A stretch of 64,000 nucleotides of DNA from the NCBI RefSeq assembly GCF_021365465.1, contig NZ_CP089932.1:4278001-4342000 (forward strand), read 5' to 3'. This DNA comes from Erwinia tracheiphila (GTDB lineage Bacteria > Pseudomonadota > Gammaproteobacteria > Enterobacterales > Enterobacteriaceae). The position numbers were made by a program, and so were the translations under genes. This document shows, piece by piece, positions 5,646 to 45,126 of the stretch. A model generated the notes under the pieces. It was not told where the DNA came from. It ran no database searches and worked only from the letters and a program-made list of their open reading frames with translations. How positions within the stretch are numbered: the first letter of the stretch is position 1; each line of letters opens with the position of its first letter.

Positions 5646-5690
5646 AAAAAAGGGAACACGTACCCCGGGCAGGAGAACAGTGTTCCCCTG
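5646..5690 (-). promoter_or_regulatory. Leader with alternative hairpins before the N6-methylase (L1)
   Basis: On the minus strand GGGAACAC pairs with GTGTTCCC followed by TTTTTT, a terminator-like stem ending just before the Shine-Dalgarno. An earlier stem, CAGGGGAAC with GTTCTCCTG, shares the GGGAAC segment, so the two cannot form together. Confidence 0.75.
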
Positions 5691-5694
5691 AGGG

Positions 5695-5725
5695 TAAAAA
5701 AGCTGCAGCCGGTGAAGGCTGCAGC
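5695..5725 (-). terminator. Rho-independent terminator after the YubB-like gene
   Basis: On the minus strand GCTGCAGCC pairs with GGCTGCAGC around a 6-base loop, followed by TTTTTT. It lies just downstream of the gene ending at 5749 and just before leader L1, so two terminator-like stems stand in series between these genes. Confidence 0.85.
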
Positions 5726-5748
5726 GCGGTTAATTGGTCAGAAACCGG

Positions 5749-6684
5749 TTATCCACGAACTTCGCTGTAACCAGCCGTCTCTGGTCCAGGATGCGGTTGT
5801 TCACTACTGACCAGATAAAGTGCCGGTGCGGACTGTAGAGTGTCCACCGGCAACCCCGGGTGACCATCCACATGCGCCCCGAGGTCATAGCAGTCATAGC
5901 CACTGAGGCCGCTGGCCGGTTCGCTGTACGTATGCCGCACTTCACACTCAAAGAGAGCGGAAATACCGGCCACCACCTCACCTGACGGTGGATACCATGG
6001 AGAATCCAGCCGCAGCGTTAACCCGTTAGTGGCATGACGGTGGAGGTTTACATTATGCCCGGCCGGCCACTCCATACCGTAAATACGGCTGTAGAAGCTT
6101 ACCGTTGTGGATATTCCCGCCAGCAGCCCACCGGAGCCGTTAAGCTCCGTGGCCAGCCGCGTCGGAATAACCATCAGCATATCGCATGGCTGCGACCGTT
6201 CCGGGTATTCCCGCAGACGCTCCCAGCAAGCTGCTGCATCAGGCTCGTCATTCATCCCGGCCAGACCAAACCAGTCCGCATACTGCCTTTTCATCAGCAT
6301 AGCCATGATGTCCCGCGACACCTGGGGGATATTTTCCCACTTCAGCGCTCCCAGGCCGGACTGGTGATACAGCCGGTCAATCCGGCGTATGGTCTCCGTA
6401 TCCAGCGCCACGTCTTTCTGCAACAGCTCCAGCCACTGCTCAAACGCAAGGTTAGCGGCCGTTGACTGCCCGACACCGTGACGAACCAGCCCCTGAAAGG
6501 GCATATACGAGACGGTTCGCACCGGTTTCAGTATCCCCGCGCACCCTGTCAGGAACAGCTGTATGCTCTGCAGTATTGCGTGGCGGTAACGCGGCGTGTC
6601 TGCGCCATTTATCCACTGCAACAGCACATCGATACAGACAGATTTACCGGTAATTTCAAAACGGTTCTGGCACCATTCAGACAT
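5749..6684 (-). CDS. YubB/Api92-like protein (DUF1281-type)
   Basis: A 311-aa protein. The start MSEWCQNRFEITG and the general build resemble the DUF1281/Api92 (YubB) family, whose members carry a ferredoxin-like fold and occur on plasmids and ICEs. Family function is unknown. No membrane segment or catalytic motif is visible. The start follows a strong GAGGAG and leader L2. It sits between ardC and the N6-methylase, as in plasmid leading regions. The family assignment is from memory of the N-terminal pattern. Confidence 0.6.
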   Translation of the reverse strand: MSEWCQNRFEITGKSVCIDVLLQWINGADTPRYRHAILQSIQLFLTGCAGILKPVRTVSYMPFQGLVRHGVGQSTAANLAFEQWLELLQKDVALDTETIRRIDRLYHQSGLGALKWENIPQVSRDIMAMLMKRQYADWFGLAGMNDEPDAAACWERLREYPERSQPCDMLMVIPTRLATELNGSGGLLAGISTTVSFYSRIYGMEWPAGHNVNLHRHATNGLTLRLDSPWYPPSGEVVAGISALFECEVRHTYSEPASGLSGYDCYDLGAHVDGHPGLPVDTLQSAPALYLVSSEQPHPGPETAGYSEVRG

Positions 6685-6707
6685 AAGTTGATACTCCTCT
6701 TTTCAGT

Positions 6708-6781
6708 AAAAAAAGAGGGCATCATCCCGTGAGGAACAATGCCCTCACGGGAGGGTGACAATTGTATTACTGTCGTCACCC
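6708..6781 (-). promoter_or_regulatory. Leader with three hairpins before the YubB-like gene (L2)
   Basis: Clearest member of the leader set. In minus-strand order: GGGTGAC/GTCACCC (6753-6781); perfect CCCGTGAGG/CCTCACGGG (6726-6751); and GAGGGCAT/ATGCCCTC followed by seven T (6708-6746). The second and third stems share GAGG and exclude each other. The T tract ends about 10 bases before GAGGAG. Confidence 0.8.
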
Positions 6782-6791
6782 GATAGATTAA

Positions 6792-7850
6792 TTACGCGTC
6801 TTCAGCCTGACGGCCGAGTGGGGCGAGCAAATATTCCGACGCCTCCCGGGCCTGCCGGCAGGCGCTGAACAGCGCCTTTTTGTCGGATTTCAGTTTTGAC
6901 AACCAGCCGTCAACATAACTTTCATGCTGCAAATCACCGGTTATCCCGAGATGTGCGCACAGAAAGGCACTGCCGATTTCAGCTATCAGTTCCTCGAAGG
7001 CATACACCGGGTCGCCAAATTTCTTTAACGCCCGCGTTATCCCTTCACGGTTCAGTCGCTTCACATGGCCACTGGCATGTACCAGCTCGTGAAGGACCGT
7101 GGACCAGTAGTCGCCTTCAGCGTCAAACTGCGACGTCAGGGGCAGCACTATCTGGTCGGTGGCGGCGCGATAATATGCCCGGTTCTGCGGCCTGGGTGAA
7201 AACTGCACGCCGGTGGCGTTCACCACCGACAGGACCTGCTGCAGCTGTGCCGGACTGACGCCAGCGAAATCCTCCTGTGGCCGGGTGACGGTGGCAGTGC
7301 CACGCACCTGGTCGGGAAGATCAGCACACTGTTCAGTATTGAACAGCGGAAACTGGCGCAACATCGGCACCGTTTCCATCTGCGGCTTACCGTCAGCATC
7401 AAACAGCTTATTGCCGTTGCTGTCTTCAGCCTGCTTTGTCCAGTCACGATATATCACTGCAAGCGTGGCGGTTTCGCCCTTGCGAACCTGACCTCCGGCC
7501 TCCTGTGCCTGGTTGTATGTCAGCCAGCGGTCGCTGGTAAAACCGCGCTCTTCAGCCGCCAGCCACAGCAGCAGAACATTCACGCCGCTGTAGTCCCGGC
7601 CGGTAAGCGCGTTGACCGGCATCAGGGTGTTTATCCCCTGCTGCGCATTTCGCCACGGCCGTCGCCAGGGGGGTATACCGTTTTCCAGCGCGACAATGAT
7701 CCGGTCAGTGACCAGACGGTAAATATCGCCGCAGCCGGTGAGCGTCGCGACCGTTCCTGCTGCCTGGCAACGTTTGCCGGAGGAGGAGGTTTTGCGTACC
7801 GCCGGCTTTTTACAGACCGTGGCGGTGGTTTTACGGTTATTCGTTTTCAT
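6792..7850 (-). CDS. ardC: ArdC-like antirestriction protein
   Basis: A 352-aa protein with the ArdC layout: a basic N-terminal tail, a ssDNA-binding domain from about residue 40 (DRIIVALENGIPPWRRPW, then GVNVLLLWLAAEERGF), and a C-terminal zincin-like domain with HELVHASGH. ArdC proteins bind single-stranded DNA and protect incoming DNA from restriction during conjugation; the metal site is intact here. The start follows AAGGAG. It lies in a block of genes each with an attenuator-like leader, downstream of a hairpin-rich repeat. Early expression after entry fits this context but is not shown. Confidence 0.85.
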   Translation of the reverse strand: MKTNNRKTTATVCKKPAVRKTSSSGKRCQAAGTVATLTGCGDIYRLVTDRIIVALENGIPPWRRPWRNAQQGINTLMPVNALTGRDYSGVNVLLLWLAAEERGFTSDRWLTYNQAQEAGGQVRKGETATLAVIYRDWTKQAEDSNGNKLFDADGKPQMETVPMLRQFPLFNTEQCADLPDQVRGTATVTRPQEDFAGVSPAQLQQVLSVVNATGVQFSPRPQNRAYYRAATDQIVLPLTSQFDAEGDYWSTVLHELVHASGHVKRLNREGITRALKKFGDPVYAFEELIAEIGSAFLCAHLGITGDLQHESYVDGWLSKLKSDKKALFSACRQAREASEYLLAPLGRQAEDA

Positions 7851-7862
7851 GGAGCACTCCTT

Positions 7863-7907
7863 AAAACCGGCATGCCCCTCCCCTGCGGGCGTGAGGCACG
7901 CCGCAGG
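7863..7907 (-). promoter_or_regulatory. Leader with alternative hairpins before ardC (L3)
   Basis: On the minus strand CCTGCGG/CCGCAGG (7882-7907) competes with an 11-bp stem, CGGCGTGCCTC with GGGGCATGCCG, followed by GTTTT. The shared segment is CGG. The second stem ends some 8 bases before AAGGAG. Confidence 0.7.
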
Positions 7908-7922
7908 CGGGTGGAATTTAAA

Positions 7923-8537
7923 TCAGGCGCTCAGCAGCAGCGCCCCGTCAGGTGAAACACATTCTGTCCGGCGTTGCAGATGATGAGCAGCCACCAAAAA
8001 CCGGTGATGATCCGCAAACCTGGCATGACGGCACGCAACGGAATGAACATCCTGAAGCAGCCGTAGTGCAGTCATACGCCAGCACTTCAGCTCGCTGCGG
8101 CTACTGCAGGCACCTAAATGCCCGGTGGCCGTTACATGCAGCCTGTCTGTCAGATCCCGGTAACCGGCCACCGGCACATAGCGCCGCTCTCCGCTGTATA
8201 CCGCGATATCGTTATCTAAAAGCATCAGTGTCAGCTGATGATTATTCGTCAGCATGTCCCATATATGCCCTTCCGTCAGGACGAGAGGTTTAGTGAAAAC
8301 AGCATTGTCGACCAGCACAGGGGCCAGCGTAGCCCATCCCTGCTCCCTGTCAGGATGACAGCCATCGGCAAACGCCTGGTGCCGTAACTGCTCTTCACGT
8401 CCGGGGGCTGAACGGAAACGTTCGCCATCCTGAACGGACAAAGAAACCGTTACGTCACAGGTGAGTACCACTGGCCTGTCGTTACTTAAGGACTCGGTCA
8501 AAACAGCTTTCAGGTCTTTTCCGTGAAAACGCAACAT
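7923..8537 (-). CDS. Hypothetical protein, 204 aa
   Basis: Unrecognised protein, third gene of the ardC block. The start ATG follows CAGGAG and leader L4. The sequence has scattered histidine and cysteine residues towards the C terminus (CRHARFADHHRF and HHLQRRTEC) but no clear metal motif; no signal peptide or membrane segment. Shared context with ardC and ssb-type operons suggests a role in establishing the ICE in a new cell, which is inference only. Confidence 0.6.
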   Translation of the reverse strand: MLRFHGKDLKAVLTESLSNDRPVVLTCDVTVSLSVQDGERFRSAPGREEQLRHQAFADGCHPDREQGWATLAPVLVDNAVFTKPLVLTEGHIWDMLTNNHQLTLMLLDNDIAVYSGERRYVPVAGYRDLTDRLHVTATGHLGACSSRSELKCWRMTALRLLQDVHSVACRHARFADHHRFLVAAHHLQRRTECVSPDGALLLSA

Positions 8538-8548
8538 ATTCGCACTCC

Positions 8549-8588
8549 TGAAAGACAGGGACCTCCGGCAGGAGGTCTCCCTGCCGGG
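8549..8588 (-). promoter_or_regulatory. Leader with alternative hairpins (L4)
   Basis: On the minus strand CCGGCAGG pairs with CCTGCCGG (8565-8587). The alternative stem pairs CAGGG-AG-ACCT with AGGTCCCTG (two-base bulge), then TCTTTC. The two share CAGG. The Shine-Dalgarno CAGGAG follows at once. The T tract is weaker than in L2 or L6. Confidence 0.65.
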
Positions 8589-8644
8589 TTGGTGTTATTC
8601 AGACGGTGTTACAGCACCACTGAAGGGTTAAGACGAATCAGCAC

Positions 8645-9643
8645 TTACCAGATCGCAAACAGAAAAACACTTTCCCGCTCCATATCCAGCGTACGGATGC
8701 AGTATTCCGCCCACACGGCGATCAGTTGCAGCTCTGTGCAGAACGTATCCCCGTGGGTTGGGTCGTCGTTGTACGACGAGAACCAGCCGTTGCGGATGTC
8801 ATCGCGTAGTAATGCGAGATGATTGCGGGACAGAAATATCGGCTCCTGATCCGGAACGCCTTCCGCATAGTCCGGCATATTGACGCTGACCCAGTAAAGC
8901 AGAGCGTCTAAACCACTCAACGTCACCAGATCACCGGTACTGGAACCTAAAACGAGTTCCAGCGAAGGGGCTTCCGGAGCGGCTGAAAGACACGCCCGGG
9001 GTTCATACAATCTGAACTCCAGAGCGGCAATATCCTCCCACTGCTCACGGGACAGATTTATTCCCGGGCTCAGGGTAAGACTGCCGGCAATAGCTTGTTC
9101 AGTCAGCCGGGCATTTTCCTGTGAAAACGATGTGGCATACTGCGCCGCATCAGGAAGTTCCCAGGCTGAGAACTGGCCGTCACGGGCCCGGTTCAGGATG
9201 GCCAGCGGCAGCGCCCATGAACAGGCTCCTGCCGTGGAATGAACAATAAAATGCGCTGCACAGATATTATGGAGCGCCAGCATCACCATGCGGGTAAACA
9301 AATCTGCCGACATCTGATGCTCAGTTTCAATCTCATCCACGCTCAGCACGTCCCGGGTACGCTCACGCGAAACGGTAATGATGCGATGCCTGTAGCCTTC
9401 ACCCGTTTTACCGCTGAAGACCAGCTCGTCAGCGTTCGGACTACTGTCGGAATGAAAAAGAGAGAAAGCCCCGGTTTGCTCATTGTTCCGGCGCGGATTT
9501 ACCGGCCGCATGCAACATGGCAGGCAGTGGTACATATCGATAATCGCCGAGGTAAATTTGTTCCAGGTGTCGACCGGAACGGTACTCCGCTGCTCGATAG
9601 TGTAAACAACAGGGTGACCTGCTGGTAAGAAACGTTCAGTCAT
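8645..9643 (-). CDS. Hypothetical protein, 332 aa
   Basis: Unrecognised protein of the ardC block. I start it at ATG 9643 (MTERFLPAGHPV) because GAGGA lies 7 bases upstream; an in-frame start at 9670 would fall inside the leader hairpin L5. It contains a CLPCCMRP cysteine cluster near residue 45 and NPRRNNEQ after it; the rest is soluble and mixed alpha/beta in look. No family recognised. Confidence 0.65.
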   Translation of the reverse strand: MTERFLPAGHPVVYTIEQRSTVPVDTWNKFTSAIIDMYHCLPCCMRPVNPRRNNEQTGAFSLFHSDSSPNADELVFSGKTGEGYRHRIITVSRERTRDVLSVDEIETEHQMSADLFTRMVMLALHNICAAHFIVHSTAGACSWALPLAILNRARDGQFSAWELPDAAQYATSFSQENARLTEQAIAGSLTLSPGINLSREQWEDIAALEFRLYEPRACLSAAPEAPSLELVLGSSTGDLVTLSGLDALLYWVSVNMPDYAEGVPDQEPIFLSRNHLALLRDDIRNGWFSSYNDDPTHGDTFCTELQLIAVWAEYCIRTLDMERESVFLFAIW

Positions 9644-9668
9644 GGATAAATCCTCTTTAATAGTTAAC

Positions 9669-9713
9669 AAAAAGGGGATTTATCCCCCGGACGGGAAATA
9701 AATCCCCGTCAGG
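9669..9713 (-). promoter_or_regulatory. Leader with alternative hairpins (L5)
   Basis: On the minus strand GACGGG/CCCGTC (9690-9710) competes with GGGGATTTAT/ATAAATCCCC followed by TTTTTG. The second stem is 10 bp and ends before GAGGA. Confidence 0.75.
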
Positions 9714-9780
9714 GTGGGTCACAGACTACAACTGTTAAGCTGACATCAACTGCTCAGATATATGAGGTAATAAATGGCTG

Positions 9781-10119
9781 TTATGGCTGGAAGCGATAAC
9801 GAAAGTGAGCAAGATGCCCGGCCTGCCGGCACGCAAGCCGGTAAGCTTTGCGGCGTCCGGCATTTTCAGGAACCGGTACAGCTAAACGAGAATAAACATA
9901 TTCACCGCTGTGCCAGCCTCTGCGTAGCGTGAGCCATACCCGCAGCCCCTTCTCTGTCGACGCGACATGAGCGCGAACGGCAAAATTACCAGGCACGTTG
10001 GTAAACCACTTGCTGTCATGGGGTAACCGTCTGCCCCGGGTTATTCGCTGAATGACCGTTTTTAAGCGATAAGGCCAGTGAACAATGAGGGGAAGTGCTA
10101 AACCGGATGATTCGGACAT
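9781..10119 (-). CDS. Hypothetical basic protein, 112 aa
   Basis: First gene of the ardC block. Arginine-rich soluble protein (VIQRITRGRRLP, then WLTLRRGWHSGEYVYSRL), possibly nucleic-acid binding from its charge; no family recognised. The ATG follows CAGGAG right after leader L6, whose T tract ends a few bases upstream. Confidence 0.6.
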   Translation of the reverse strand: MSESSGLALPLIVHWPYRLKTVIQRITRGRRLPHDSKWFTNVPGNFAVRAHVASTEKGLRVWLTLRRGWHSGEYVYSRLAVPVPENAGRRKAYRLACRQAGHLAHFRYRFQP

Positions 10120-10133
10120 CGTGTTTCTCCTGT

Positions 10134-10187
10134 AAAAAAAACGGGAAACACCTGCCCGATCGGGAAGATATTTCCCGTCGGGGAGTC
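10134..10187 (-). promoter_or_regulatory. Leader with alternative hairpins, head of the ardC block (L6)
   Basis: On the minus strand CGGGAA/TTCCCG (10161-10177) competes with CGGGAAA/TTTCCCG followed by eight T. A further stem, AGTCAGAA/TTCTGACT, stands just upstream (about 10185-10210). The terminator-like stem ends 5 bases before CAGGAG. Confidence 0.75.
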
Positions 10188-10221
10188 AGAAACGGCATTA
10201 TTCTGACTGTCTGGTAGGTTT

Positions 10222-10400
10222 AAGAAACCTTCATCGTCGCGTCATAGTGCGCTTGTATTGACGATATCTGCTTCCAAAGGTGTGCAGATGTACCACATTC
10301 GATATGCTCTCCCTTTCAGGCTGAGGGAGATTTCTTTGCAGTCACCCGAAGGCGTTTCTCACAGACTGCTGAAACATTGGTGGTCACCCGAAGGTAACAG
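10222..10400 (-). repeat. Structured leader repeat, copy A
   Basis: One of three copies of a conserved intergenic element. Stems seen in all copies: ATCTGC/GCAGAT around a 12-base loop, CTCCC/GGGAG around an 11-base loop, and GCAGTC/GACTGC (weaker in copy C) around a loop with CCCGAAGGCG, then ACATTGGTGGTC. In copy A part of the last unit is repeated (CACCCGAAGG at about 10386). It lies directly downstream of a promoter-like sequence and upstream of leader L6, so it should be the 5' end of the ardC-block mRNA. Confidence 0.8.
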
Positions 10401-10412
10401 ATTAGCCTGTAC

Positions 10413-10441
10413 ATTTTCAGACCACTAAAGTTGGGTGTCAA
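10413..10441 (-). promoter_or_regulatory. Promoter-like sequence of the ardC block
   Basis: On the minus strand TTGACA (10441-10436), a 17-bp spacer and GAAAAT (10418-10413). The predicted start point falls at the edge of repeat copy A. The same -35 sequence stands at nearly the same distance from copies B and C. Confidence 0.6.
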
Positions 10442-10463
10442 GACGATTTATCAACTATTTAAA

Positions 10464-10498
10464 CAATAAAAAAGCCGCAGCCCTGAGTGAGCTGCGGC
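10464..10498 (-). terminator. Rho-independent terminator of the recombinase operon
   Basis: On the minus strand GCCGCAGCTC.../GGGCTGCGGC forms a strong stem followed by TTTTTT. It lies about 30 bases after the stop of the gene ending at 10527 and separates that operon from the ardC-block promoter. Confidence 0.9.
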
Positions 10499-10526
10499 AG
10501 TTACGTTTGAGTATGCTGACACACTG

Positions 10527-10949
10527 TCATTTGTTAATAATCAGGTTACCTTTCTTATTAAACAGATCCCCAATCCAGTTATCAACCATTCCGTTTACAT
10601 TCTCCTCACTCCTGGCATTATACTCCTGAGACATAAGCTGATGAGTCAACCTTGTGGTAATTGGGATGATAACTTCCCCTTTATTGAGGTGAACCGTTTT
10701 TTCTGAGGGTGGGACTCTGATTACTCCCGTCATCTCGAAAATATCACCTTTTTGCGTAAAAGTATCGTGTTCGTTATCTTCAAAATACACGTTATCAAAA
10801 TACCTTGCCAACATCGCACAGGTATCAGATTCACTTAACGGTGTTTCACAATTAAAAGCAATGACAATTTCACTGCATTGATTGCCCTCCAGAATAATTT
10901 CATAAACAGGTTTAACCGAAGTGGCTTTCATTAATATATCGTAGCGCAT
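10527..10949 (-). CDS. Hypothetical protein, 140 aa
   Basis: Unrecognised acidic protein, second gene of the recombinase operon, starting 20 bases after the recombinase stop with AGAGG before the ATG. Low cysteine content, no membrane segment; the middle (FEMTGVIRVPP, GEVIIPITTRL) suggests a beta-rich fold. Followed by a strong terminator. Confidence 0.6.
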   Translation of the reverse strand: MRYDILMKATSVKPVYEIILEGNQCSEIVIAFNCETPLSESDTCAMLARYFDNVYFEDNEHDTFTQKGDIFEMTGVIRVPPSEKTVHLNKGEVIIPITTRLTHQLMSQEYNARSEENVNGMVDNWIGDLFNKKGNLIINK

Positions 10950-10969
10950 AAGGACCTCTGTATGTAAGT

Positions 10970-11893
10970 TTAACCATTATCATCAGGCAATTCTTTGAAA
11001 TAGACTTGTCTGACATATTTACCTCTCCCGTCACCATGTCCCAGGTCCATGGAAACCTGCGCGAAAATTTCTCTTTCGGTATAACCCTGTCGCTCATAAA
11101 AGGATTTTGCTTCCTGAGAGAAATGATACCGCATACTGTGAGGAGCTTTTTTCCCGGTCAGACCGACCTGACGAACCTGGTAGCGATAAGTATCTATCGC
11201 TTTTCTTATATCAGGTCGGTCAACAAGTTTTCCATTCTGTTTTTCCATTACTTTTTCGGCATAGTTAATTGCTGCTCTGACCGAATCGCGGTCAAGAATA
11301 ACGGTATCCCGGGGGCGTCCGCCTTTTGTTCCGAATACAACACGTACGGAGTTTTGCCCTGATTCCAGTGCACGTTTCCAGCTCGGAACAGATTTACACG
11401 CCTCAACAGCTTCTTTTGTTCTTAATCCCAGAGCATAGGAAAGTTGCATTGCAGCTGCCACGCCAGGGTTCTTTTTTTCCACAGCCTGGAACGCCTTATA
11501 AAACTCATCCGGTGCTAAAGGCAACTTTGTTCCATCACGACTTGCGGGTTCAAGACCAAGAGCTTTATTACTTAATAACGGATTGTCCGGATCAGCAAGT
11601 TTGTAGCGACCACCCCGGAATAAAATCCCTCGTATAGCAGAGCGTTCATTTTGAATAGTTCTGACAGAGACACCCTGCTCTTTTCTGCTTTGCAAGTAGC
11701 CCACAAAATGACGCGTCTTAATACTGTCGGCATGGCGTAATTGGATCCCGTTTTCCCGTAGATAATTCAAAAAGTATTTTGCGATCCTCATTCTATCGGC
11801 TGTGCTGGCGTATCCGCCAGACGCCTCACGAGCCTGCGTGATGAAATCGCGTCTGAATTGCTCAACCTTCGATCGTGCCGTTTTCCTGTTCAA
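10970..11893 (-). CDS. Tyrosine-recombinase-like integrase-domain protein
   Basis: A 307-aa protein with the two-domain plan of tyrosine recombinases: a SAM-like N-terminal core-binding domain (residues 1-130; TRHFVGYLQSRKEQGVSVRTIQNE) and a catalytic-like domain. Candidates are Arg in LGLRTKEAVE, and SMRYHFSQ in place of the usual HxxR box; the C-terminal HGDGRGKYVRQVY offers a Tyr. It resembles the integrase-domain family found inside ICEs away from the att ends and is not the element's main integrase. Start is TTG at 11893 with GGAGGT upstream. Incomplete active-site matches leave open whether it recombines DNA. Confidence 0.7.
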   Translation of the reverse strand: MNRKTARSKVEQFRRDFITQAREASGGYASTADRMRIAKYFLNYLRENGIQLRHADSIKTRHFVGYLQSRKEQGVSVRTIQNERSAIRGILFRGGRYKLADPDNPLLSNKALGLEPASRDGTKLPLAPDEFYKAFQAVEKKNPGVAAAMQLSYALGLRTKEAVEACKSVPSWKRALESGQNSVRVVFGTKGGRPRDTVILDRDSVRAAINYAEKVMEKQNGKLVDRPDIRKAIDTYRYQVRQVGLTGKKAPHSMRYHFSQEAKSFYERQGYTEREIFAQVSMDLGHGDGRGKYVRQVYFKELPDDNG

Positions 11894-11933
11894 AGATTAC
11901 CTCCACCTGAGTGACAGATATAGCTGTTCTTCT

Positions 11934-11973
11934 GTTCATACGGGTGAATTGCCTGCAACTCACCCGTATGAAC
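11934..11973 (-). promoter_or_regulatory. Long inverted repeat before the recombinase gene
   Basis: GTTCATACGGGTGA and TCACCCGTATGAAC form perfect 14-bp arms around 12 bases. An overlapping alternative pairs TTGCC with GGCAA. It sits about 40 bases before the TTG start, like the leaders L1-L8 but without a T tract. Confidence 0.6.
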
Positions 11974-12613
11974 GGGCAATGCGACCAAATTGTTAGTTTT
12001 GCGTCATTACAGACGTTCCCTGCGTGTCGGTTCGTTCGCCATCCTGGCTCGTTTGATATTGTGTAGCAGGGTAATGCCATGTTGAGTTTTTACAGGTGAT
12101 CAACCAGTACTCGGTACTGGCGAATTAAACACCCCATCAGCGTTTTGCTGACGCCTCAATATCAGAACGATTTTCCTCCATTTATCATAAAGTTAATGGA
12201 TATCAATTTGAGTCATTAACAATGGTTGAGATGAGTTTCCGGCACGTTCGTCCGTGAAAACGGACGTGACGGGAATGCCGGGATTGCGTCTTCATTGCGT
12301 ACGTCACGAGGTAATACAACTTGTAAACCCGCGTCGTACGTGGTGTTGACGTAGTACGCCTGGCGGCGTCACTTGGTGTTCGCTTCGCTTGCACACAAGT
12401 GACGCCGCGCAGTTTCGTGCTCGTAATGCAACGCCGTAAGCGGCCAAATGTACCAAATGGCCTTATCCGGTCGATGCAAAAGTCGTACGAAACTCAGGAC
12501 GTATCACTGAAGAAACGAAATGTTGATGCGACTTCCACAGACGATATTCGTCTGACTGGAAGTGGCCAGCCCGTTGTGCAACACCCGAACCGGTGTGCAG
12601 CTGAGCAAAGAGA
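11974..12613. other. Structured non-coding region between repeat B and the recombinase
   Basis: I see no convincing gene in these 640 bases. They hold several strong inverted repeats: 12249-12266 (CGTCCGT/ACGGACG), 12363-12408 (13-bp arms GCGGCGTCACTTG/CAAGTGACGCCGC) and 12531-12563 (ACTTCC/GGAAGT enclosing CAGACGA/TCGTCTG). If transcription starts at the copy B promoter this is the body of an mRNA leader of about 0.95 kb; a separate RNA gene or a transfer or replication site is also possible. Confidence 0.5.
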
Positions 12614-12848
12614 AAGAAACCCTCATCGCCGCGTCATAGTGCGCTTTTGTTGACGATATCTGCTTCCAAAGGTGCGCAGATGTACCACATTAATGATCTC
12701 CCTTTCAGGCTACGGGAGAATTCTTTTGCAGTCACCCGAAGGCGTTCCTCACAGACTGCACGGAACATTGGTGGTCGCTTTCGCGACAGTAGCCACCCGA
12801 AGGCGCTCCTCACAGGCTACAGGAGCATTGGTGGTCGTCATTGACGAC
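12614..12848 (-). repeat. Structured leader repeat, copy B (with an extra unit)
   Basis: Second copy of the hairpin-rich element. Same order of stems as copy A; the last unit is present twice: GCAGTC/GACTGC, then GTAGCC/GGCTAC, each around CACCCGAAGGCG and each followed by CATTGGTGGTC and a short GTCG-type hairpin (GTCGC/GCGAC and GTCGT/ACGAC). Compensatory base changes between the units (GTC/GAC to GCC/GGC) support pairing. Confidence 0.8.
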
Positions 12849-12863
12849 ATTTACAACACTTAA

Positions 12864-12893
12864 AGCCTACCAATAGAGGCTGGCTTACGTCAA
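12864..12893 (-). promoter_or_regulatory. Promoter-like sequence upstream of repeat B
   Basis: On the minus strand TTGACG (12893-12888), an 18-bp spacer and TAGGCT. Weaker than those at copies A and C, but the -35 is at the same distance (about 50 bases) from GGTGGTC of the repeat. Confidence 0.45.
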
Positions 12894-12913
12894 TATTTTC
12901 ATGTCAGGATGTT

Positions 12914-13615
12914 TTACTTTATTTTGATCTTCATATCAGCATTCATTTTTTTAATTTCCTGATGATACCCTTCCCACTTAACACCCGGAAAAACATTAGG
13001 CTCGCCTCTCAGCCATTTTTTAAAAAGCAAAGGATTATCCAGAGCAATATATAAAGACTTACTCATCTCATGACTATCTATAAATAGGTCATTGTTATGT
13101 GCTGCAAGAGCCATATAAGAAGAAAGAATCCCAGTTGAATAAAACACCGCACCATCCTGAAGTGGTGAACCATTACTTTCAATGCAATCTTTTTCATCAT
13201 TAGTAAAGAAACGTCTGCACGCTTCCGGACGGTAATTATAGATAACACACTGCCCAGAACTTTTTCCGAGAAAAACACACTCCATTCTATAGCTATCATC
13301 AATATATTCCTCAACCTTATCAGCTCGAAGTTTTAGCCTTTTTTTAATGAAAAACAACTTTGACTCACTCAAATTCTTTGTTAAATTCTCAGCTATAAAA
13401 AACACATCCGGCGTAATTAAGGAAACATGTAAAGAACAGCAACGCGAGCATCCTTTATGGCATATAGAACTTATCCCTTTTTCGTTTTTAATTTTATCCG
13501 CCACCCCCTCAGAACATTTATGCCAACTCTCCATAGTTAAAATAACTTGTCTCTTGCTTTTAACTTTAAATGAATTGTAACATGATGAATAAAACCAATC
13601 ATGAAAAGATTTCAT
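12914..13615 (-). CDS. YkgJ-type cysteine-cluster protein
   Basis: A 233-aa protein with the YkgJ-family (CxxxCxxCC) signature: CHKGCSRCC near residue 55, then CVFLGKSSGQCVIYNYRPEACR near 125-145, a metal- or iron-sulfur-binding pattern. The family is predicted to chelate zinc or iron; exact function unknown. The ATG at 13615 is preferred because AAGGGGAAAG stands just upstream; a TTG six codons earlier lies inside that site. AT-rich compared with its neighbours, so probably cargo. It ends about 20 bases from the promoter-like sequence at repeat B. Confidence 0.75.
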   Translation of the reverse strand: MKSFHDWFYSSCYNSFKVKSKRQVILTMESWHKCSEGVADKIKNEKGISSICHKGCSRCCSLHVSLITPDVFFIAENLTKNLSESKLFFIKKRLKLRADKVEEYIDDSYRMECVFLGKSSGQCVIYNYRPEACRRFFTNDEKDCIESNGSPLQDGAVFYSTGILSSYMALAAHNNDLFIDSHEMSKSLYIALDNPLLFKKWLRGEPNVFPGVKWEGYHQEIKKMNADMKIKIK

Positions 13616-13740
13616 TTCTTTCCCCTTTCCCAAAAATCAACATAAGCAGCTATTCCATTATTATTCACGACGCCAGTCTCTGGTTGTAACCATGAAATCA
13701 AAGATAAGAAGGAGGCTATCCTTCTTATTTTCCTCATAGA

Positions 13741-14309
13741 TTATCGAACATTGCCCTCTGCAACACCTTTCACTTGCGTATACAAATTACCTAAATAGGC
13801 TTCTGTTAAATGTTGTGGGTTTGAAGAAAAAAACTGAATATAGACACGACTTCCAACACCATTCTTTTCAACCTCCAGTGTAATATGATCTTTGCCTTCC
13901 CCCCAGTTTCGCCCCATTTTCGCCCCATTTTATAATAACTTCCTGCAGATGCCGACCATTCAGGCCTTTGTTCCTCAATCGCAGCAGCAGCCAAACGGGC
14001 CGAAGTACTTTCTCTATTTTTAATACTATTTAACTCATCTGTCGTCATAAATTTATAATAACGGCGCAAACGAGCAGCGGCAGTATCGACATCAACTGGA
14101 ATAGATAAATCTTTTGATGTGGAATCCTGACTGGCTTCAACTTTAGGTGCTAACTTAGGCATGCCTGATTCATTCTGCGATGACTGATTTCCTGCTATTG
14201 ACGATCCAAAATCACTGATTTTCTTATTTACTGAAGATAACTCATCCATGGAACATGCTGTTATAAACATAGAGACAATACAAACAACCAATACTTTCTT
14301 CCTGAACAT
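13741..14309 (-). pseudogene. Outer-membrane-type lipoprotein, frameshifted by an 11-bp duplication
   Basis: The N terminus has a signal peptide and lipobox (VSMFITAC, Cys 19). ATGGGGCGAAA occurs twice in tandem near codon 128. Removing one copy joins YYKMGRNWGEG to a frame that stays open to TAA at 13741-13743 and looks like real protein (EVEKNGVGSRVYIQFFSSN, then AYLGNLYTQVKGVAEG). As it stands the frame ends at 13806 with an implausible tail (167 aa). The protein next to TraG may belong to surface functions such as exclusion, which is a guess from position. Confidence 0.8.
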
Positions 14310-14456
14310 GCTTTCCTCCTTAAAAATTATTTACAATCCAATTAATGTCGATATCTCCAGCCACGCTGAGGTTGCGCACTTCTTCAACAATCCTTATGAT
14401 ACAAGGGTGATTCGAACAAAAAAACAGCGCTCAGTCAAACAGGAGAAAACTGAGAT

Positions 14457-14636
14457 ATGAATATTTTCATGAAAAAGCTACTGAATGCGGTGCTACCTGA
14501 CCCTCAACCAGACAATCACGCTGACGACAGATCTTTACTGACAAGTTTCAACGATGATGAAGCGGAAGAAACGCCGGCATTGTTTGATACACGCCCTTAC
14601 TTAGATTTTGAGCAATGGCATAACGATAACAACTAA
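14457..14636 (+). CDS. Small acidic protein, 59 aa
   Basis: Plus-strand ORF starting ATGAATATTTTC with AGGAG 11 bases upstream, ending at TAA 14634-14636. The start overlaps (ATGA) the stop of an upstream open frame (ending FFNNPYDTRVIRTKKQ..., roughly 14340-14460) for which I find no clear start; that frame may be a truncated coupled partner. The product is basic at the N terminus (MKKLLNAVLP) and strongly acidic after. A hairpin with terminator shape follows. Function unknown. Confidence 0.45.
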   Translation: MNIFMKKLLNAVLPDPQPDNHADDRSLLTSFNDDEAEETPALFDTRPYLDFEQWHNDNN

Positions 14637-14660
14637 CAGCGCTGCTCATACCAGCGCTGT
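14636..14660. terminator. Hairpin between convergent genes
   Basis: ACAGCGCT/AGCGCTGT, perfect 8-bp arms with a 9-base loop. It follows the small plus-strand ORF and faces the end of the traG-like gene, so it could serve both. Only a short T run (GTTT) follows on the plus strand. Confidence 0.5.
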
Positions 14661-14670
14661 GTTTCAGTAG

Positions 14671-16212: not shown

Positions 16213-16218
16213 AGTGAA

Positions 16219-16572: not shown

Positions 16573-16585
16573 AATCACAATTTCC

Positions 16586-18019: not shown

Positions 18020-18030
18020 GTTTTACCTCG

Positions 18031-23540: not shown

Positions 23541-23667
23541 ACCAATTCCTTACCATTGACTGACTTGGTTCCTAATCACCTACCCGGTATTGCTCCGCCA
23601 GTCCGCCGCTATTGTCGCCTGATAGTAGGCCAGTGGAGAATGGCCAAACCATCAAGTTATTTAAAAT

Positions 23668-27325: not shown

Positions 27326-27336
27326 TCGTTTCCCCT

Positions 27337-30767: not shown

Positions 30768-30776
30768 GGGGTCGCC

Positions 30777-31163: not shown

Positions 31164-31193
31164 AAATTTTTCTCCAGAAATTGATTGATTAAT

Positions 31194-40352: not shown

Positions 40353-40358
40353 GATGGC

Positions 40359-41081: not shown

Positions 41082-41674
41082 TTTTTCAGAAACCCTCCCT
41101 TAACCGGGACGGGAGTCGTCCGAGGAGCCTGGACAGGCGGTAACTGGCTGGCCGGTAACTGATACCCGTCACGCAGGCTGTGGCAGACCACACGCTGAAC
41201 ATCATCAACCTCCAGCTGCCATGCAGGGCCGGCCATCACCTGCAGAGCGGTGCGCAGGCGCATGGGCCCCAGTTGATACTGCACGGCCGGCAGTGGCTGG
41301 CGGTACAGAACGCCGTTTGCCGGTCCCGTGGCGCAAAGTGAATAACCGGACTGCTTCAGGGTATAGCGCAGGGCATCCGCCACTGTCGGATGCAGGGATG
41401 ACGGGATACGAATATCAATAATCTGCGACAGCGGATCGCGCTGGGCAGCCATCGGATCCGTGCTGACCAGCAGATAACGGTCATAACGCACCACCTCCGG
41501 CGTTCTGGCATATTCATCAGGCGCGACAGTCTGAACATTGCGGGTGACAGCCACGGAAGGCGTGGGTACAGCGGCTTCACGCTGCTGTAGTTTCTGAGGT
41601 GAAGAGGAACAGCCGGCCAATAGAAGCAGCGGCAGAACAACAGGCAGGGTCTTATAACGGGGTTGAAATTTCAT
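41078..41674 (-). CDS. PilL-N-type lipoprotein (TIGR03748)
   Basis: A 198-aa lipoprotein with lipobox LLLLAGCSS (Cys 22). The part YDRYLLVSTDPMAAQRDPLSQIIDIRIP and TVADALRYTLKQSGYSLC matches the TIGR03748/PilL N-terminal pattern, a secretin-associated domain. In SPI-7 a type IVB pilus operon follows a pilL gene; here no other pil gene is present. The IS4-family element lies 110 bases upstream, between this gene and the ssb module. Confidence 0.8.
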   Translation of the reverse strand: MKFQPRYKTLPVVLPLLLLAGCSSSPQKLQQREAAVPTPSVAVTRNVQTVAPDEYARTPEVVRYDRYLLVSTDPMAAQRDPLSQIIDIRIPSSLHPTVADALRYTLKQSGYSLCATGPANGVLYRQPLPAVQYQLGPMRLRTALQVMAGPAWQLEVDDVQRVVCHSLRDGYQLPASQLPPVQAPRTTPVPVKGGFLKK

Positions 41675-41784
41675 CCGGGGTTTCCTTTACAGTGATTAAC
41701 AGGCCTCACTGTGCGAAATCCCCCCGCATTCACTCAATTAACAACTGATTTTCCACAGATGAAAAAAAACGCCGACCGGAAGGT

Positions 41785-43200
41785 TAATGCTGGTCACTTA
41801 AGGTGACCAGCAACCTTTTTATCCGGATATTTCCTGCTCTTTACCCTCAACTCTCTCGGGTAACTTCGCTCTCTTCTACCCGGTAACACAAGCCATTTCG
41901 CCTGTTCATACAGGGTTCTCAGTTCTCCCGGCATTTTTCCCGGCGAAGCCCAGGGCAGGGTTATCAGCATCCGGATTATTTCGCTTATCGCTCCACTGAA
42001 GCTCAGCTGGTAAGGCAGGTAATCTCCTTTCAGATGGAACGCCATCTGCACCATCTGATATCGCACCAGGTTATAAGCCAGCAGTACCCCCCATAGCTCC
42101 TGTCTCACCAGCTCCGGCAGGCGACTGCGTAATGTCCACCGGCTGTCCAGCATACCCTGCTTTGCTTCCCGGTAGCCCAGTTCTGTTTCCCAGCGGTGGC
42201 GATATAGCTCGCTGATATCTTTACCCGGATAGCGATTCGGGTCTGTCAGTGACGTCAGCACCTGCCTCTCTTTACCGTCTACCCTGCGGGTCAGCAGTCT
42301 TGCCACCATTTCTTCCGGGACCCCTGGCCATTGCTTCCTGGCTCGTGGACTGGTTTTCAGGCATATCAGTTCATCTCCACGCCCCAAACGGCGAACCACC
42401 TGATACTGTACGTGTTTTTTCAACGGCAACAACCAGTGACGGTGTTCTCCTGCTGTCTGCCAGTGATGAAGCAGACCCATCGAATAAAATCCCTTATCGA
42501 ACAGGGTGATACTGTTATTCGGGGTTTTCTCCGTCAGGTGCTCAGCCAGCCGCATTTCACTGACTTTTTCACTGTCGAATGCACTGGCGGCGATCAGATG
42601 GCTGCTCAGCTCCATCAGACAAACCATTCGCACCTGAGGATAGCCGCCTTCGCCGTACTGGCTGCTGTGTTTACTGAAGACGGCTCTGTTTTCCGGCGTA
42701 TCGGCGGTACGCCAGACCACGCCGTCGACAGCAAACAGATTCAGACCGTGCCATTTTGGATGTGCAGCCTGCTGATTCCAGTGCTGCTGTGTGATATCAA
42801 AAAGCTCCCGCACTGCATTTTCACCCAGAGTCTTACGGCGCTGAATGACAGCGCTGCGTGCGGTAAAGGGAGCTCCGGTCCGGTCAGTAATATCCATCAG
42901 ATTGACGATTTCGGTCATCGGACGATCGCAAAAAATGGACATCCCAACGACAAGCCAAATCATGGATTCGAGGGAAAGTTTACGTTTACGCAAAGTAACG
43001 GTATCGGTCAGGGTGAGCGCCTGCTGAATAAGCTCGGGAGGAATAAGGTCGGCGAGACTACGGGCGCGCTCAGGAGTGGCGGCATTGATGATGCCGAGGG
43101 CCTGGGAAAGTTCCATTTAAAAAGGGTTCCATGATGAACATAGAACCCTTTTTACCGCATAAACCGGATCGGTCAACCGATCCTTAAATGATCGGCATTA
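41785..43200 (-). mobile_element. IS4-family insertion sequence, copy 1, with target duplication
   Basis: The element is 1416 bp with imperfect 18-bp terminal inverted repeats: TAATGCTGGTCACTTAAG at one end and TAATGCCGATCATTTAAG (reverse complement) at the other. It is flanked by the direct repeat ACCGGAAGGT (10 bp) at 41775-41784 and 43201-43210, in line with IS4-type duplications. A second copy lies at 58396-59811. It separates the PilL-like gene from the ssb operon and may reduce read-through into the transfer genes. Confidence 0.95.
41794..43116 (-). CDS. IS4-family transposase (copy 1)
   Basis: A 440-aa DDE transposase with the IS4-group motifs: [17 protein letters not shown] (first Asp), [15 protein letters not shown] (second Asp) and the Y-(2)-R-(3)-E-(6)-K signature in [16 protein letters not shown]. 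Similar in plan to E. coli IS4 InsG (442 aa). Intact. Confidence 0.95.
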
Positions 43201-43238
43201 ACCGGAAGGTCAGCGTTCTGTTTGTCAAATTACACCGG

Positions 43239-43502
43239 TCAGTGTCGTGGAATCGCACCTTTAGCACCACGAAGCAGCCCTTCGGTACTCAGGTCCTCAT
43301 CCAGTTCAGGCCAGTGGATACCATAGCCGGCACCACACAGCTCCCAGTTTTGTCGCTGCTCAGCAGTACCGGCAGCAAGACGCGGGAACCAGGCAACGGG
43401 AACAGAGATACTGCGTCCATCCATGAGATCAACCGTCAGGCGATCGTCATCAATACAGACATTCATTACGCGAATATCATTCTCACTTTGTAAAGTAAGC
43501 AT
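43239..43502 (-). CDS. DUF2442 protein
   Basis: An 87-aa protein with the DUF2442 pattern (DDDRLTVDLMDGRSISVPVAWFPRL, then ELCGAGYGIHWPELDEDL). It overlaps the DUF4160 gene by 20 bases, with GGGAGG before its ATG. The pair is a common two-gene unit on mobile elements, toxin-antitoxin-like in layout, but its function is not established. Confidence 0.85.
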   Translation of the reverse strand: MLTLQSENDIRVMNVCIDDDRLTVDLMDGRSISVPVAWFPRLAAGTAEQRQNWELCGAGYGIHWPELDEDLSTEGLLRGAKGAIPRH

Positions 43503-43719
43503 CCCAGGCCTCCCGGAGTGTTATCTGATATTCTTTAACCAGACGTTGTAATTCACGAAGCTCGTGTGAAGCAAATCCCACACTACGCGCGACGCTGATA
43601 TCATGTAACCATATTTTAGCGGTTGCATTGCCTTTATCAATATGGACATGCGCCGGTTCATTAGGTTCATGACTGTAAAAGTAGAATCGATAAGCGCCGA
43701 TCCTTAATACTGTAGGCAC
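43483..43719 (-). CDS. DUF4160 protein
   Basis: A 78-aa protein with the DUF4160 signature (RFYFYSHEPNEPAHVHIDKG, then AKIWL). The start is GTG with AGGGGGA upstream, 13 bases after the ssb stop. Probably co-transcribed with ssb and DUF2442. Could be the toxin-like half of a pair; this is inferred only from layout. Confidence 0.85.
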   Translation of the reverse strand: MPTVLRIGAYRFYFYSHEPNEPAHVHIDKGNATAKIWLHDISVARSVGFASHELRELQRLVKEYQITLREAWDAYFTK

Positions 43720-43732
43720 AATATTCCCCCTG

Positions 43733-44293
43733 TCATATTGCGTGTATGGTCACGCGATTAACGCCATAACCACACCCGATAAAGGGGATGTCGTCGTCAA
43801 AATCCATCGGCATGCCGGCAGCAGAGCTTCCGGTTGACGATGGCCCAACCTGAGACGGCTGACCACCTGATACAGGCTGCTGAGGTTGCCCCCATCCCTG
43901 CTGTTGAGAGCCCTGGTATTGAGAGGAGGAGCTGCCCGAGTGCTGACGACTCCCCAGCATCTGCATGCTACCGTTCACGTTGACCACCACTTCGGTAGAA
44001 TAACGATCCTGGCCATGCTGATCCTGCCATTTACGGGTACGTAACTGGCCTTCAATATACACCTGTGAGCCTTTACGCAGATATTCACTGGCCACTTCCG
44101 CCAGTTTGCCGAACAGCACAACACGGTGCCATTCGGTCTGCTCTTTCATTTCGCCGGTTTGCTTATCGCGCCAGCTCTCTGAAGTCGCGATCGACAGCGT
44201 GGTCACTGCGTTACTGTTGGGCATATAGCGCACTTCAGGATCCTGGCCTAAATTTCCAACCAGAATGACTTTGTTAATTCCACGTGAAGCCAT
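43733..44293 (-). CDS. ssb: Single-stranded DNA-binding protein
   Basis: A 186-aa protein with an OB-fold domain (residues 1-110: [19 protein letters not shown], then [22 protein letters not shown]), a Gln/Ser/Gly-rich linker and the acidic tip MDFDDDIPF. Unlike host SSB, 15 residues follow the tip ([15 protein letters not shown]). I recall similar tails in some ICE and phage SSBs, so it need not be a mutation, but the tip is not terminal. Probably coats transferred ssDNA. It lies downstream of repeat C and leaders L7 and L8. Confidence 0.9.
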
Positions 44294-44305
44294 GATGCTT
44301 TCTCC

Positions 44306-44509
44306 TTATGCCCACTCACGTTGAGTCCAGGCACCAGTGGTGAATGCCTGAAGCGCTTTTTTATGGGTACTAAAGTATTCTTCAGACTCACGGGAAACAG
44401 GTCCCTCATGATTTGCCGTACCAATATAATAACCGCGACCGCTTTTGAGCACCTGCAAAGGTAAAGTAAAACCGGACTCTGCTGCCAGAATTCCTGTTGA
44501 ATTATTCAT
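44306..44509 (-). CDS. Hypothetical protein, 67 aa
   Basis: Small protein of the ssb operon with the stretch LQVLKSGRGYYIGTANHEGPVSRESEEYF; it looks like a compact beta-rich fold. It has its own leader (L7) and AAGGA before the ATG, and ends 12 bases before ssb. Similar small genes beside ssb occur in enterobacterial ICEs; function unknown. Confidence 0.65.
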   Translation of the reverse strand: MNNSTGILAAESGFTLPLQVLKSGRGYYIGTANHEGPVSRESEEYFSTHKKALQAFTTGAWTQREWA

Positions 44510-44526
44510 GATGTGTTTCCTTAATA

Positions 44527-44570
44527 AAGAAAACAGACCTCCCTGAAGGAAGGTCCGTTATTCAGGGAGG
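44527..44570 (-). promoter_or_regulatory. Leader with alternative hairpins before the 67-aa gene (L7)
   Basis: On the minus strand CCTCCCTGAA/TTCAGGGAGG (44538-44570, perfect 10 bp) competes with CGGACCTTCC/GGGAGGTCTG followed by TTTTCTTT. The shared segment is GGGAGG. The terminator-like stem ends about 10 bases before AAGGA. Confidence 0.75.
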
Positions 44571-44586
44571 TGAGGGTAAAAATAAC

Positions 44587-45051
44587 TCAGAAAGAATTTT
44601 CAGCGTATTCGTGCTGAGCAGTACCGTTCTGAGGCGGCATGGAGTCCGGTTTTTCAGTCTTATAAACCATATCCTGGCCTATTTTTATCCAGTCCACTTT
44701 TATTAAGCGGGCTTTCAGGCTGACACGCTGCTCGCCGGCATGATCGCCTTTGTTAAGCGTAAAGATATCCGTGGACGGATTACTTAAGGTGAAGCCGATA
44801 AGGACTTTTTTATCCTCATCAACGGCTTTCTGACAGCGACCAATCAGGCTGGTCGCTTCTTTGCCGGCAACGGAAACATCAAAGCGAACATATACCGGGT
44901 TATCCGTCGGACCACTCAGTGCGTTAATCACGCAACTGAGAAAAGAGCCGTTCTGAAGATTGACCTGGCGAATATTGCTGAGATACCCCAGACCTTTAAT
45001 GGTCAGGTTGAAATATTCCGTTTTGCCGGAAGCAGGATTATTTACAGACAT
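44587..45051 (-). CDS. DUF3577 / STY4534-type ICE replication protein
   Basis: A 154-aa protein whose pattern (YFNLTIKGLGYLSNIRQV, then FLSCVINALSGPTDNPVYVRFDV) fits the DUF3577 / STY4534 family found in SPI-7-like ICEs next to ssb and topB. The family is linked to ICE replication by context only. First gene after repeat C and leader L8. Confidence 0.8.
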   Translation of the reverse strand: MSVNNPASGKTEYFNLTIKGLGYLSNIRQVNLQNGSFLSCVINALSGPTDNPVYVRFDVSVAGKEATSLIGRCQKAVDEDKKVLIGFTLSNPSTDIFTLNKGDHAGEQRVSLKARLIKVDWIKIGQDMVYKTEKPDSMPPQNGTAQHEYAENSF

Positions 45052-45087
45052 GATGTTTTCTCCATGGAGGTAAAAATAAGATACGAC

Positions 45088-45126
45088 GGAGAAAACATCT
45101 GCCCGGACGGGAGTGTTTTTCCCGTC
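45088..45126 (-). promoter_or_regulatory. Leader with alternative hairpins before DUF3577 (L8)
   Basis: On the minus strand GACGGGA/TCCCGTC (45106-45126) competes with GGGAAAAACA/TGTTTTCTCC (one mismatch). An upstream stem AGTCGGAATT/AATTCTGACT stands just before. The second stem lacks a direct T tract. GGAGAAAACAT recurs at the Shine-Dalgarno (45051-45065), so the same strand could also pair there. Confidence 0.6.

Follow-up and report, generated by a model that had tools for sequence, protein, structure and literature searches.

Several described systems resemble the one analysed here. In two of them, putRNA of phage HK022 (PMC9378689) and EAR of Bacillus (named in PMC8955417), an RNA transcribed early suppresses termination in cis, in settings different from ours, namely phage and exopolysaccharide operons, respectively. 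The cis-acting canT RNA of Tn916, which lets RNA polymerase through terminators T1-T3, belongs, as here, to a conjugative element, but to a Gram-positive one, and a lid on the Shine-Dalgarno (SD) sequence is not mentioned for it in the cited sections (PMC11658703). The conjugation operon of pLS20 starts with an antiterminator RNA and has over 20 terminators, to which the silencing of stray transcription is ascribed (PMC8955417). This order, an antiterminator-type RNA first (conAn1/conAn2) and many terminators after it, is also the one proposed for the operons described below; however, conAn1/conAn2 require a protein for long range, and the cited sections do not mention terminators coupled to an SD lock (PMC8955417). 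Anti-defence genes in leading regions are driven by Frpo/ssi single-strand promoters, which are DNA structures, unlike RNA leaders; the words "terminator" and "hairpin" are absent from the main text of that paper (PMC11541004). The STAXI motif, described in 2010, comprises pseudoknot repeats near SSB, topoisomerase, antirestriction and integrase genes; its authors weighed single-stranded DNA but favoured RNA, and the cited sections give no function for it and do not mention leaders (PMC2864571).

The window, i.e. the whole 64,000-nucleotide stretch of Erwinia tracheiphila DNA analysed here, contains two operons headed by what a preliminary description had called repeats A and C. Both repeats proved to be STAXI (RF01728); the three STAXI copies of the window score 86.7-111.7 bits against an Rfam gathering score of 40.5. 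Eight genes of these operons are preceded by leaders consisting of four strands capable of three pairings: 1:2, the terminator-like 1:3, and 3:4, where strand 4 is the SD region. Strand 1 resembles strand 4, strand 2 is complementary to strand 1, and strand 3 is complementary to both 1 and 4. The features are as follows (bits for leaders refer to our leader model).

10413 to 10441, minus strand: sigma70-like promoter of operon A, TTGACA-17-GAAAAT, predicted from sequence; the spacing to STAXI is similar at other loci
10247 to 10399, minus strand: STAXI RNA at the head of operon A, 89.6 bits
10117 to 10184, minus strand: leader of gene 10119-9781; 1:2, 1:3 followed by T8, 3:4 of GTGTTTC with GAAACAC around the SD; 38.8 bits
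9641 to 9715, minus strand: leader of gene 9643-8645; 3:4 is GGATAAATCC/GGATTTATCC; 42.2 bits
8535 to 8590, minus strand: leader of gene 8537-7923; weak U tract and weak 3:4; only 13.7 bits; missed by the three-pairing scanner
7848 to 7915, minus strand: leader of the ArdC gene 7850-6792; short U run; scanner score 33.5; no match to the leader model in the window
6682 to 6756, minus strand: leader of the DUF1281 gene 6684-5749; called by the three-pairing scanner; 33.3 bits
5630 to 5697, minus strand: leader of the N6-methylase-like gene 5632-4949; called by the three-pairing scanner; 35.1 bits
U tract at 5701: an extra terminator immediately 5' of the preceding leader
45362 to 45390, minus strand: sigma70-like promoter of operon C, TTGACA-17-AATGAT, predicted from sequence
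45196 to 45348, minus strand: STAXI RNA at the head of operon C, 86.7 bits
45049 to 45132, minus strand: leader of the DUF3577 gene 45051-44587; 3:4 of 12 bp, GATGTTTTCTCC/GGAGAAAACATC; 22.3 bits
44507 to 44575, minus strand: leader of the small gene 44509-44306, before ssb; reversed layout; only 12.0 bits
12679 to 12849, minus strand: STAXI RNA B, upstream of an integrase-domain gene, Rfam match
12050 to 12170, minus strand: EFASI RNA (RF02957), between STAXI B and the integrase-domain gene, Rfam match

The overlapping, mutually exclusive stems that the preliminary description had placed before these genes are present in all eight leaders, and inside the window they are indeed confined to the two operons, where all five model matches with E < 0.01 are located. 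Directly 5' of six of the eight genes a stricter scanner found terminators (U tracts at 5650, 6713, 9672, 10139, 44535 and 45081); the U tracts of genes 7850 (GGTTTT) and 8537 (TCTTTC) are poor. Counted on both strands, terminator-like sites number 30 at 4000-14500 against 11.0 (sd 3.5) in shuffled sequences; at 41500-57500 the excess is small (22 against 15.4, sd 4.0). The two-stem picture itself was incomplete: the third pairing, in which the 3' arm of the terminator binds the SD region over as many as 12 bp (gene 45051), had been overlooked, and the supposed antiterminator state thus hides the SD too. Nor do all leaders share one architecture, since that of gene 44509 is inverted and two 5' strands vie for one 3' strand. 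The first gene starts at the ATG at 5632 and not at 5659. The three-pairing scanner, whose cut-offs were tuned on the window (leaders 33.5-53.6 with one missed, other genes up to 33.9), called no leader between STAXI B and STAXI A. A search of 5600-10300 for described Rfam families at E up to 5 gave three matches, all far under their gathering scores.

An alignment of whole leaders by MAFFT placed strands 3 and 4 wrongly, so that RNAalifold recovered no more than five pairs from it; a strand-swap test was used instead. The scanner calls a leader only if its sequence is U-rich and each of the three pairings reaches a set energy, and the results for ORF counts, swaps and folding obtained with it therefore apply to leaders so chosen. 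To free 1:2 and 3:4 from this selection bias, 45 distinct leaders were chosen by 1:3, U tract and start codon only, with no rule on the other two pairings. In this set z was -11.0 for 1:2 and -12.7 for 3:4, against -1.5 (2:4), +2.7 (1:4) and -1.3 (2:3) for pairings outside the model; 13 control terminators chosen alike elsewhere gave +0.9 (1:2) and -0.1 (3:4). For 60 leaders selected for all three pairings (65 minus five discarded by eye as false), the values were -12.1, -19.7 and -21.0, the last for 3:4, which stayed at -15.3 once the SD core was replaced. The preservation of the pairing in other elements, for which the preliminary description had suggested a search, is found; before the ArdC gene, the Klebsiella michiganensis and E. 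coli counterparts use different bases for it. As in a transcription attenuator, the terminator hairpin 1:3 and the alternative hairpin 1:2 compete for strand 1, and each of them shows covariation. These results establish the pairings and the anatomy of the leader in silico.

In computed folding of the 60 leaders, 1:3 is preferred in 42 when the transcript ends at the U tract; with the start codon made, the SD is paired in 59, and the equilibrium fold is the locked form in all 60, so an ON state must be brief or held by a further agent. Deleting strand 3 in silico left the SD paired above 0.5 in 21 of 60.

The leaders are closely linked to STAXI. STAXI matches occur in 84 genomes, 31 of which supplied the 80 loci examined. 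Around these the scanner called leaders before 153 of 717 downstream sense ORFs and 3 of 580 upstream ones, and 0 of 271 and 3 of 264 antisense ORFs; elsewhere in the genome it called 0 of 540. Where loci of one genome overlapped, all were retained in the ORF and terminator counts. In 20 genomes, where 150 of 355-698 candidates per genome were scored, 79 of 84 model matches fell within 7 kb 3' of STAXI on the same strand, among the STAXI matches listed. E. coli 8178 has a STAXI and then nine annotated genes, each directly preceded by a model match (E <= 0.05). One lone distant match (G366:C1:545935) is not called by the scanner, and the 6 kb upstream of it contain no STAXI. As expected of an antitermination RNA, STAXI lies close behind a predicted promoter: a sigma70-like sequence only a few nucleotides ahead scores at least 8 of 12 in 73 of 83 copies (background 4%), and the top-scoring -35 hexamer starts 38-44 nt ahead of the match in 75 of the 83. 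Several intrinsic terminators follow, judged from sequence alone: 310 sense against 108 antisense downstream of STAXI, and 94 against 5 near a start codon. These 94 are followed by a start codon no more than 60 nt away, and the median distance from the beginning of the U tract to that codon is 25 nt, too short a gap for a promoter in between. Leaders are absent from all 18 intervals between a STAXI copy and another on the same strand within 9 kb, seven of which also contain no terminator among the STAXI matches listed, and STAXI must therefore do another or an additional job. Among the remaining 65 copies, the scanner found no leader for 18, and some of the calls for the other 47 are probably false at the threshold of 33.

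Beyond the family of the window, leaders form arrays behind a head RNA; these heads are pseudoknot RNAs with a layout resembling that of STAXI, and leaders lie both downstream of them and interspersed with them. It speaks against the mechanism proposed below that a model of these heads (R2) gives no match to STAXI, and that one genome (G788) has strong R2 matches but no R1 match at E <= 0.01; at most 26 and 16 candidates were scored in these searches. An Rfam search of five loci (L174, L188, L176, L182 and L181) at E <= 0.5 returned group II intron pieces and a CRISPR repeat, and no STAXI. A general pseudoknot scanner performed weakly over 19 heads, giving the expected knot in L188, L199, L205, L208 and three of four STAXI heads, and a different one or none in the others. 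A fixed head motif matched 18 times in 36 loci: twelve beside a leader (by eye), one at a head without a visible leader, and five unrelated.

From these results, a mechanism may be proposed that we hold to be moderately probable: the head RNA acts as a cis-acting processive antiterminator, and each leader is a fail-safe lock, a terminator followed by an SD lid. When the polymerase reaches the U tract, 1:3 would form and work as an intrinsic terminator; if the polymerase escapes and makes strand 4, the RNA would refold to 1:2 and 3:4 and conceal the SD, so that stray or ordinary transcription would yield little protein. Transcripts from the operon's own promoter would start with STAXI, or with a pseudoknot RNA of similar layout in other families, which would bind the polymerase in cis and make it resistant to terminators over several kb, as put, EAR, canT and conAn2 reportedly do. 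For expression, ribosomes would have to load while 1:3 still keeps strand 3 off the SD. The promoter, head RNA, leaders, three covarying pairings, predicted folding order and co-location are demonstrated in silico; termination, read-through, control of translation and a role in transfer are inferred. The preliminary idea that one factor or leader RNA overrides the repeated terminators is partly supported, by the position of STAXI just past a promoter, by leaders lying almost solely downstream of it and by the pairing kept elsewhere. We know of no lock arrays in the putRNA and EAR systems. Coupling to an upstream ribosome was considered and rejected, since strand 1 lies at varying distances from the stop codon upstream of it (about 16 to 66 nt in five cases, by eye). 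Pairing of STAXI in trans with all leaders was rejected too, as the strand sequences of the leaders are too divergent (by eye).

Control might instead be mainly translational, the SD lid being opened by freeing strand 1, with the U tract as a site for the ribosome/S1 or Hfq and STAXI acting on translation or stability. The strong covariation of 3:4 agrees with this, as does the distribution of U tracts: when no U-tract rule was applied, 81 of 166 downstream enteric leaders had at least five T in eight after strand 3, as had 45 of 116 structures in other-family loci, and three of four leaders displayed for locus L191 have no U run. Since about half of the leaders have no clear U tract, termination is not universal. 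Such structures elsewhere, however, have the tract in 0 of 23 and 0 of 7 cases, and 1:3 covaries, its stem stopping at the U tract; a mainly translational role is unlikely. Less probable still is passive insulation, in which the double lock would serve only to shut out read-in transcription, and the genes would be expressed by leakage and not through a switch. IS200 and IS10 carry such a lock, both predicted end states are OFF, and the lock is repeated before successive genes; but the leaders are closely linked to STAXI, and, with no space for a promoter between terminator and start, pure insulation would leave the genes almost silent. That the head pseudoknot is the sensor of a local riboswitch and the neighbouring leader its expression platform seems very improbable: heads of other families can end 12-24 nt before a leader (ten hand-read cases; 42-107 nt in others), but leaders of the window's family lie up to 6.9 kb from STAXI, among the STAXI matches listed, and six of nine plus-strand leader matches in L188 (12.4-27.8 bits) have no head of their own. 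Single-stranded DNA promoters or structures of the Frpo/ssi type, active while the DNA enters, are scarcely credible, for although some of the genes (ArdC, SSB) are typical of leading regions and the STAXI authors weighed such DNA (PMC2864571), in other families a promoter scores at least 8 at 7 of 11 first heads but just 2 of 27 internal ones, and a U tract with SD pairing is meaningful only as RNA.

The antiterminator and fail-safe lock would give STAXI, linked here to dozens of differing leaders with covarying pairings, a concrete and testable function: before many genes in the early-transfer operons of this element family, a leader can fold so as either to stop transcription or to cover the ribosome-binding site, which links termination with concealment of the SD in one type of leader, and the head RNA may let the polymerase override the stops. 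More tentatively, at somewhat less than even chances, STAXI would belong, with the similar heads of other gammaproteobacterial elements, to one family of antiterminator RNAs of Gram-negative conjugative elements. Together with the leader arrays these RNAs would form a regulon in which the anti-restriction, SSB and related establishment genes obtain translatable mRNA only from polymerases loaded at the head. Leaders together with STAXI provide a sequence marker for such operons, many genes of which are unnamed. If true, the proposal would explain how the anti-defence genes of conjugative elements are kept silent yet ready.

The window contains part of an element whose genes include members of the STY4534 (ICE replication protein) and PFL_4669 (ICE protein) families, and Rfam places three STAXI RNAs (RF01728, a pseudoknot RNA motif) and one EFASI in the window. 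Two STAXI copies head operons A and C:

10441-10413, minus strand: promoter of operon A
10399-10247, minus strand: STAXI of operon A (Rfam)
ending at 4949, minus strand: six genes of operon A (three named by Pfam: ArdC, DUF1281 and N6-methylase-like protein)
45390-45362, minus strand: promoter of operon C
45348-45196, minus strand: STAXI of operon C (Rfam)
after this STAXI, minus strand: operon C genes for DUF3577, a small gene and SSB

The preliminary description had reported mutually exclusive hairpins directly before the ribosome-binding site of eight genes in these operons, and a leader is indeed present at each (8/8); before ssb (44293), none was called by our scanner for three pairings. 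From 5' to 3' a leader consists of strands 1, 2 and 3, in many cases a U tract, strand 4 and the start codon, with pairings 1:2, 1:3 (terminator-like) and 3:4:

strand 1: CCCnnGGGAAACAC type
strand 2: TTTCCCnnGGG
strand 3: GTGTTTCCC
strand 4, the Shine-Dalgarno (SD) region: AGGAGAAACACC

Leader sequences differ strongly from one another while complementarity is kept. In the ArdC leaders of the window, Klebsiella michiganensis and E. coli the pairings are kept with different bases. Strand 3 must match the SD, which accounts in part for the conserved G and C runs and makes strand 1 resemble the SD. R1, a leader model built from the 1:2 helix and the U tract, gave five matches in the window at E < 0.01, all of them leaders of operons A and C.

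Within operon C, behind ssb, lies a 440-aa ORF (41794-43116, minus strand) equal in length to that at 58405-59727 (minus), each with a 267-aa antisense ORF; apparently, a single insertion sequence is present here twice. Between ssb and this insertion sequence (43239-43720, minus), two small ORFs, one starting near 43720 and the other at 43502, have the look of a small two-gene cargo. A Mutator-family transposase (Pfam Transposase_mut; 2767-3975, plus) is inserted downstream of operon A. At 12050-12849 (minus), STAXI B, the third copy, and EFASI are followed by an integrase-domain gene, and no leader was called there.

In 80 fetched loci and at the window's three STAXI, an SD and an ORF of 60 codons or more came within 60 nt after 94 of 310 sense terminators downstream of STAXI, versus 21/183 sense upstream; antisense counts were 5/108 and 3/199. 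The scanner, which seeks the three pairings and U-rich sequence, called leaders at 153/717 ORFs sense downstream and 3/580 sense upstream, at 0/271 and 3/264 antisense ORFs, and at 0/540 elsewhere in the genome, over 400 kb (3 when the cut-off was relaxed). When strands were swapped among 45 distinct leaders picked solely on 1:3, U tract and start codon, z was -11.0 for 1:2, -15.4 for 1:3 (selected for) and -12.7 for 3:4, and -1.5, +2.7 and -1.3 for the unexpected pairings 2:4, 1:4 and 2:3. Thirteen distinct terminators from elsewhere, taken by the same rule, gave +0.9 (1:2) and -0.1 (3:4). For 60 leaders selected for all three pairings the values were -12.1, -19.7 and -21.0 versus -0.1, +2.1 and +1.4 for unexpected ones.

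Among the 392 genomes of the window's family, 84 carry STAXI; among 14 control genomes none does. The best promoter score reached at least 8 of 12 at 73/83 copies (4% of random windows of the loci from other families). Of the 83 copies, 47 have a called leader (score at least 33) no more than 9 kb away with no further STAXI in between, 30 of them two or more; where another STAXI follows within 9 kb on the same strand, none lies between (0/18). Model matches were found in 18 of 20 whole genomes (E up to 0.1), 79/84 lying on the same strand as STAXI and 40-6928 bases downstream of it; of the remaining five, four are opposite-strand, each overlapping a sense match, and one is far away. Behind the STAXI of E. 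coli 8178 (L287:12133-12008) come nine annotated genes, of which one is a pseudogene, each preceded by a model match, the scanner concurring at 7/9 (score at least 38); one 129-nt annotated gene (9326-9454) has no match before it. Operon A is matched in parts by 84/5426 E. coli genomes. It is also carried, together with STAXI A and B, by the K. michiganensis IncFIB plasmid NZ_CP048109.1, typed conjugative (MOBH/MPF_F): the match there is split into three pieces that cover 99% of the query at 92.4% identity, and a TraI-domain gene lies ~3.6 kb past the array's 3' end.

R1 also matches 22 of 229 genomes sampled from the class, counting that of the window, often several times in a row. At locus L174, eight leaders were called along a row of genes that includes DUF3577, RadC, DUF3275 and a DUF6094 methylase; other loci hold genes for SSB, DUF932 and helicases. 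From a named scan came 73 loci with DUF3577; 16 are not Enterobacterales by title, and 12 of these have a leader at any scanner score, that of L200 probably misplaced (L194 and L174 are one contig). An Rfam scan of five other-family loci returned no STAXI. Several heads (pseudoknot RNAs) of these families are laid out alike: stem, loop GGAUCGNGARA, stem, hairpin, and finally CGAUCC or CGGUCC, which pairs with the loop. STAXI units follow this order too, their sequences being UGUGAGA and a UUCG hairpin, and from this layout we infer that the two are related. R2, a model trained on ten such heads, recovered these ten among 38 matches at E < 0.01; the matches fall in 12 loci, with as many as six in one array (L199, L193), and none lies in the window or the nine enteric loci given. 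In the class sample it was strong (E < 1e-4) in five genomes, four with R1 matches, and weak in six more. A scanner-called leader lies within 114 nt of 19/38 heads, one doubtful, and in several others the skeleton can be made out by eye. A promoter score of at least 8 was found at 7/11 first-in-stretch heads (two with a poor -35) versus 2/27 internal heads; internal heads therefore behave like RNA modules that are transcribed, not like promoters. The array at L199:7798-14417 contains six dispersed heads of ~100 nt, five of them almost the same, a pattern that looks like copying through recombination.

In equilibrium (not kinetic) ensemble folding of the 60 leaders, which had been selected for these very pairings, mean P(1:3) was 0.66 and P(1:2) 0.22 with the RNA ending at the U tract's end, and P(1:3) fell to 0.06 on extension to the start codon. 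The SD was then paired at a mean of 0.84 (above 0.5 in 59/60); without strand 3, at 0.45 (above 0.5 in 21/60). The predicted sequence, terminator first and lid second, is the folding order a fail-safe would need.

STAXI is listed with the candidate RNAs that RNA-seq confirmed in Pectobacterium (PMC4710047); no function for the motif turned up in the open-licence literature consulted. Cis antiterminator RNAs are described in operons with internal terminators of Gram-positive conjugative elements (PMC8955417, PMC11658703) and likewise in phage HK022 (PMC9378689). No description of leaders of this type was found in the literature; the search was limited to open-licence papers, hence this is no proof of absence.

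A U tract, on which no rule was imposed, is present in 81/166 downstream enteric leaders and 45/116 other-family structures, and in 0/23 and 0/7 like structures elsewhere. The incomplete occurrence of U tracts, the lack of leaders behind STAXI ahead of the integrase-domain gene, and an ON state that must be transient or kept open by some partner are the weak points of an antitermination mechanism. Its best rival, that the leader is mainly a translational switch, appears rather improbable to us. We somewhat favour the reading in which the head RNA would act as a cis antiterminator and each leader as a terminator plus SD lid, termination and antitermination both being deduced.
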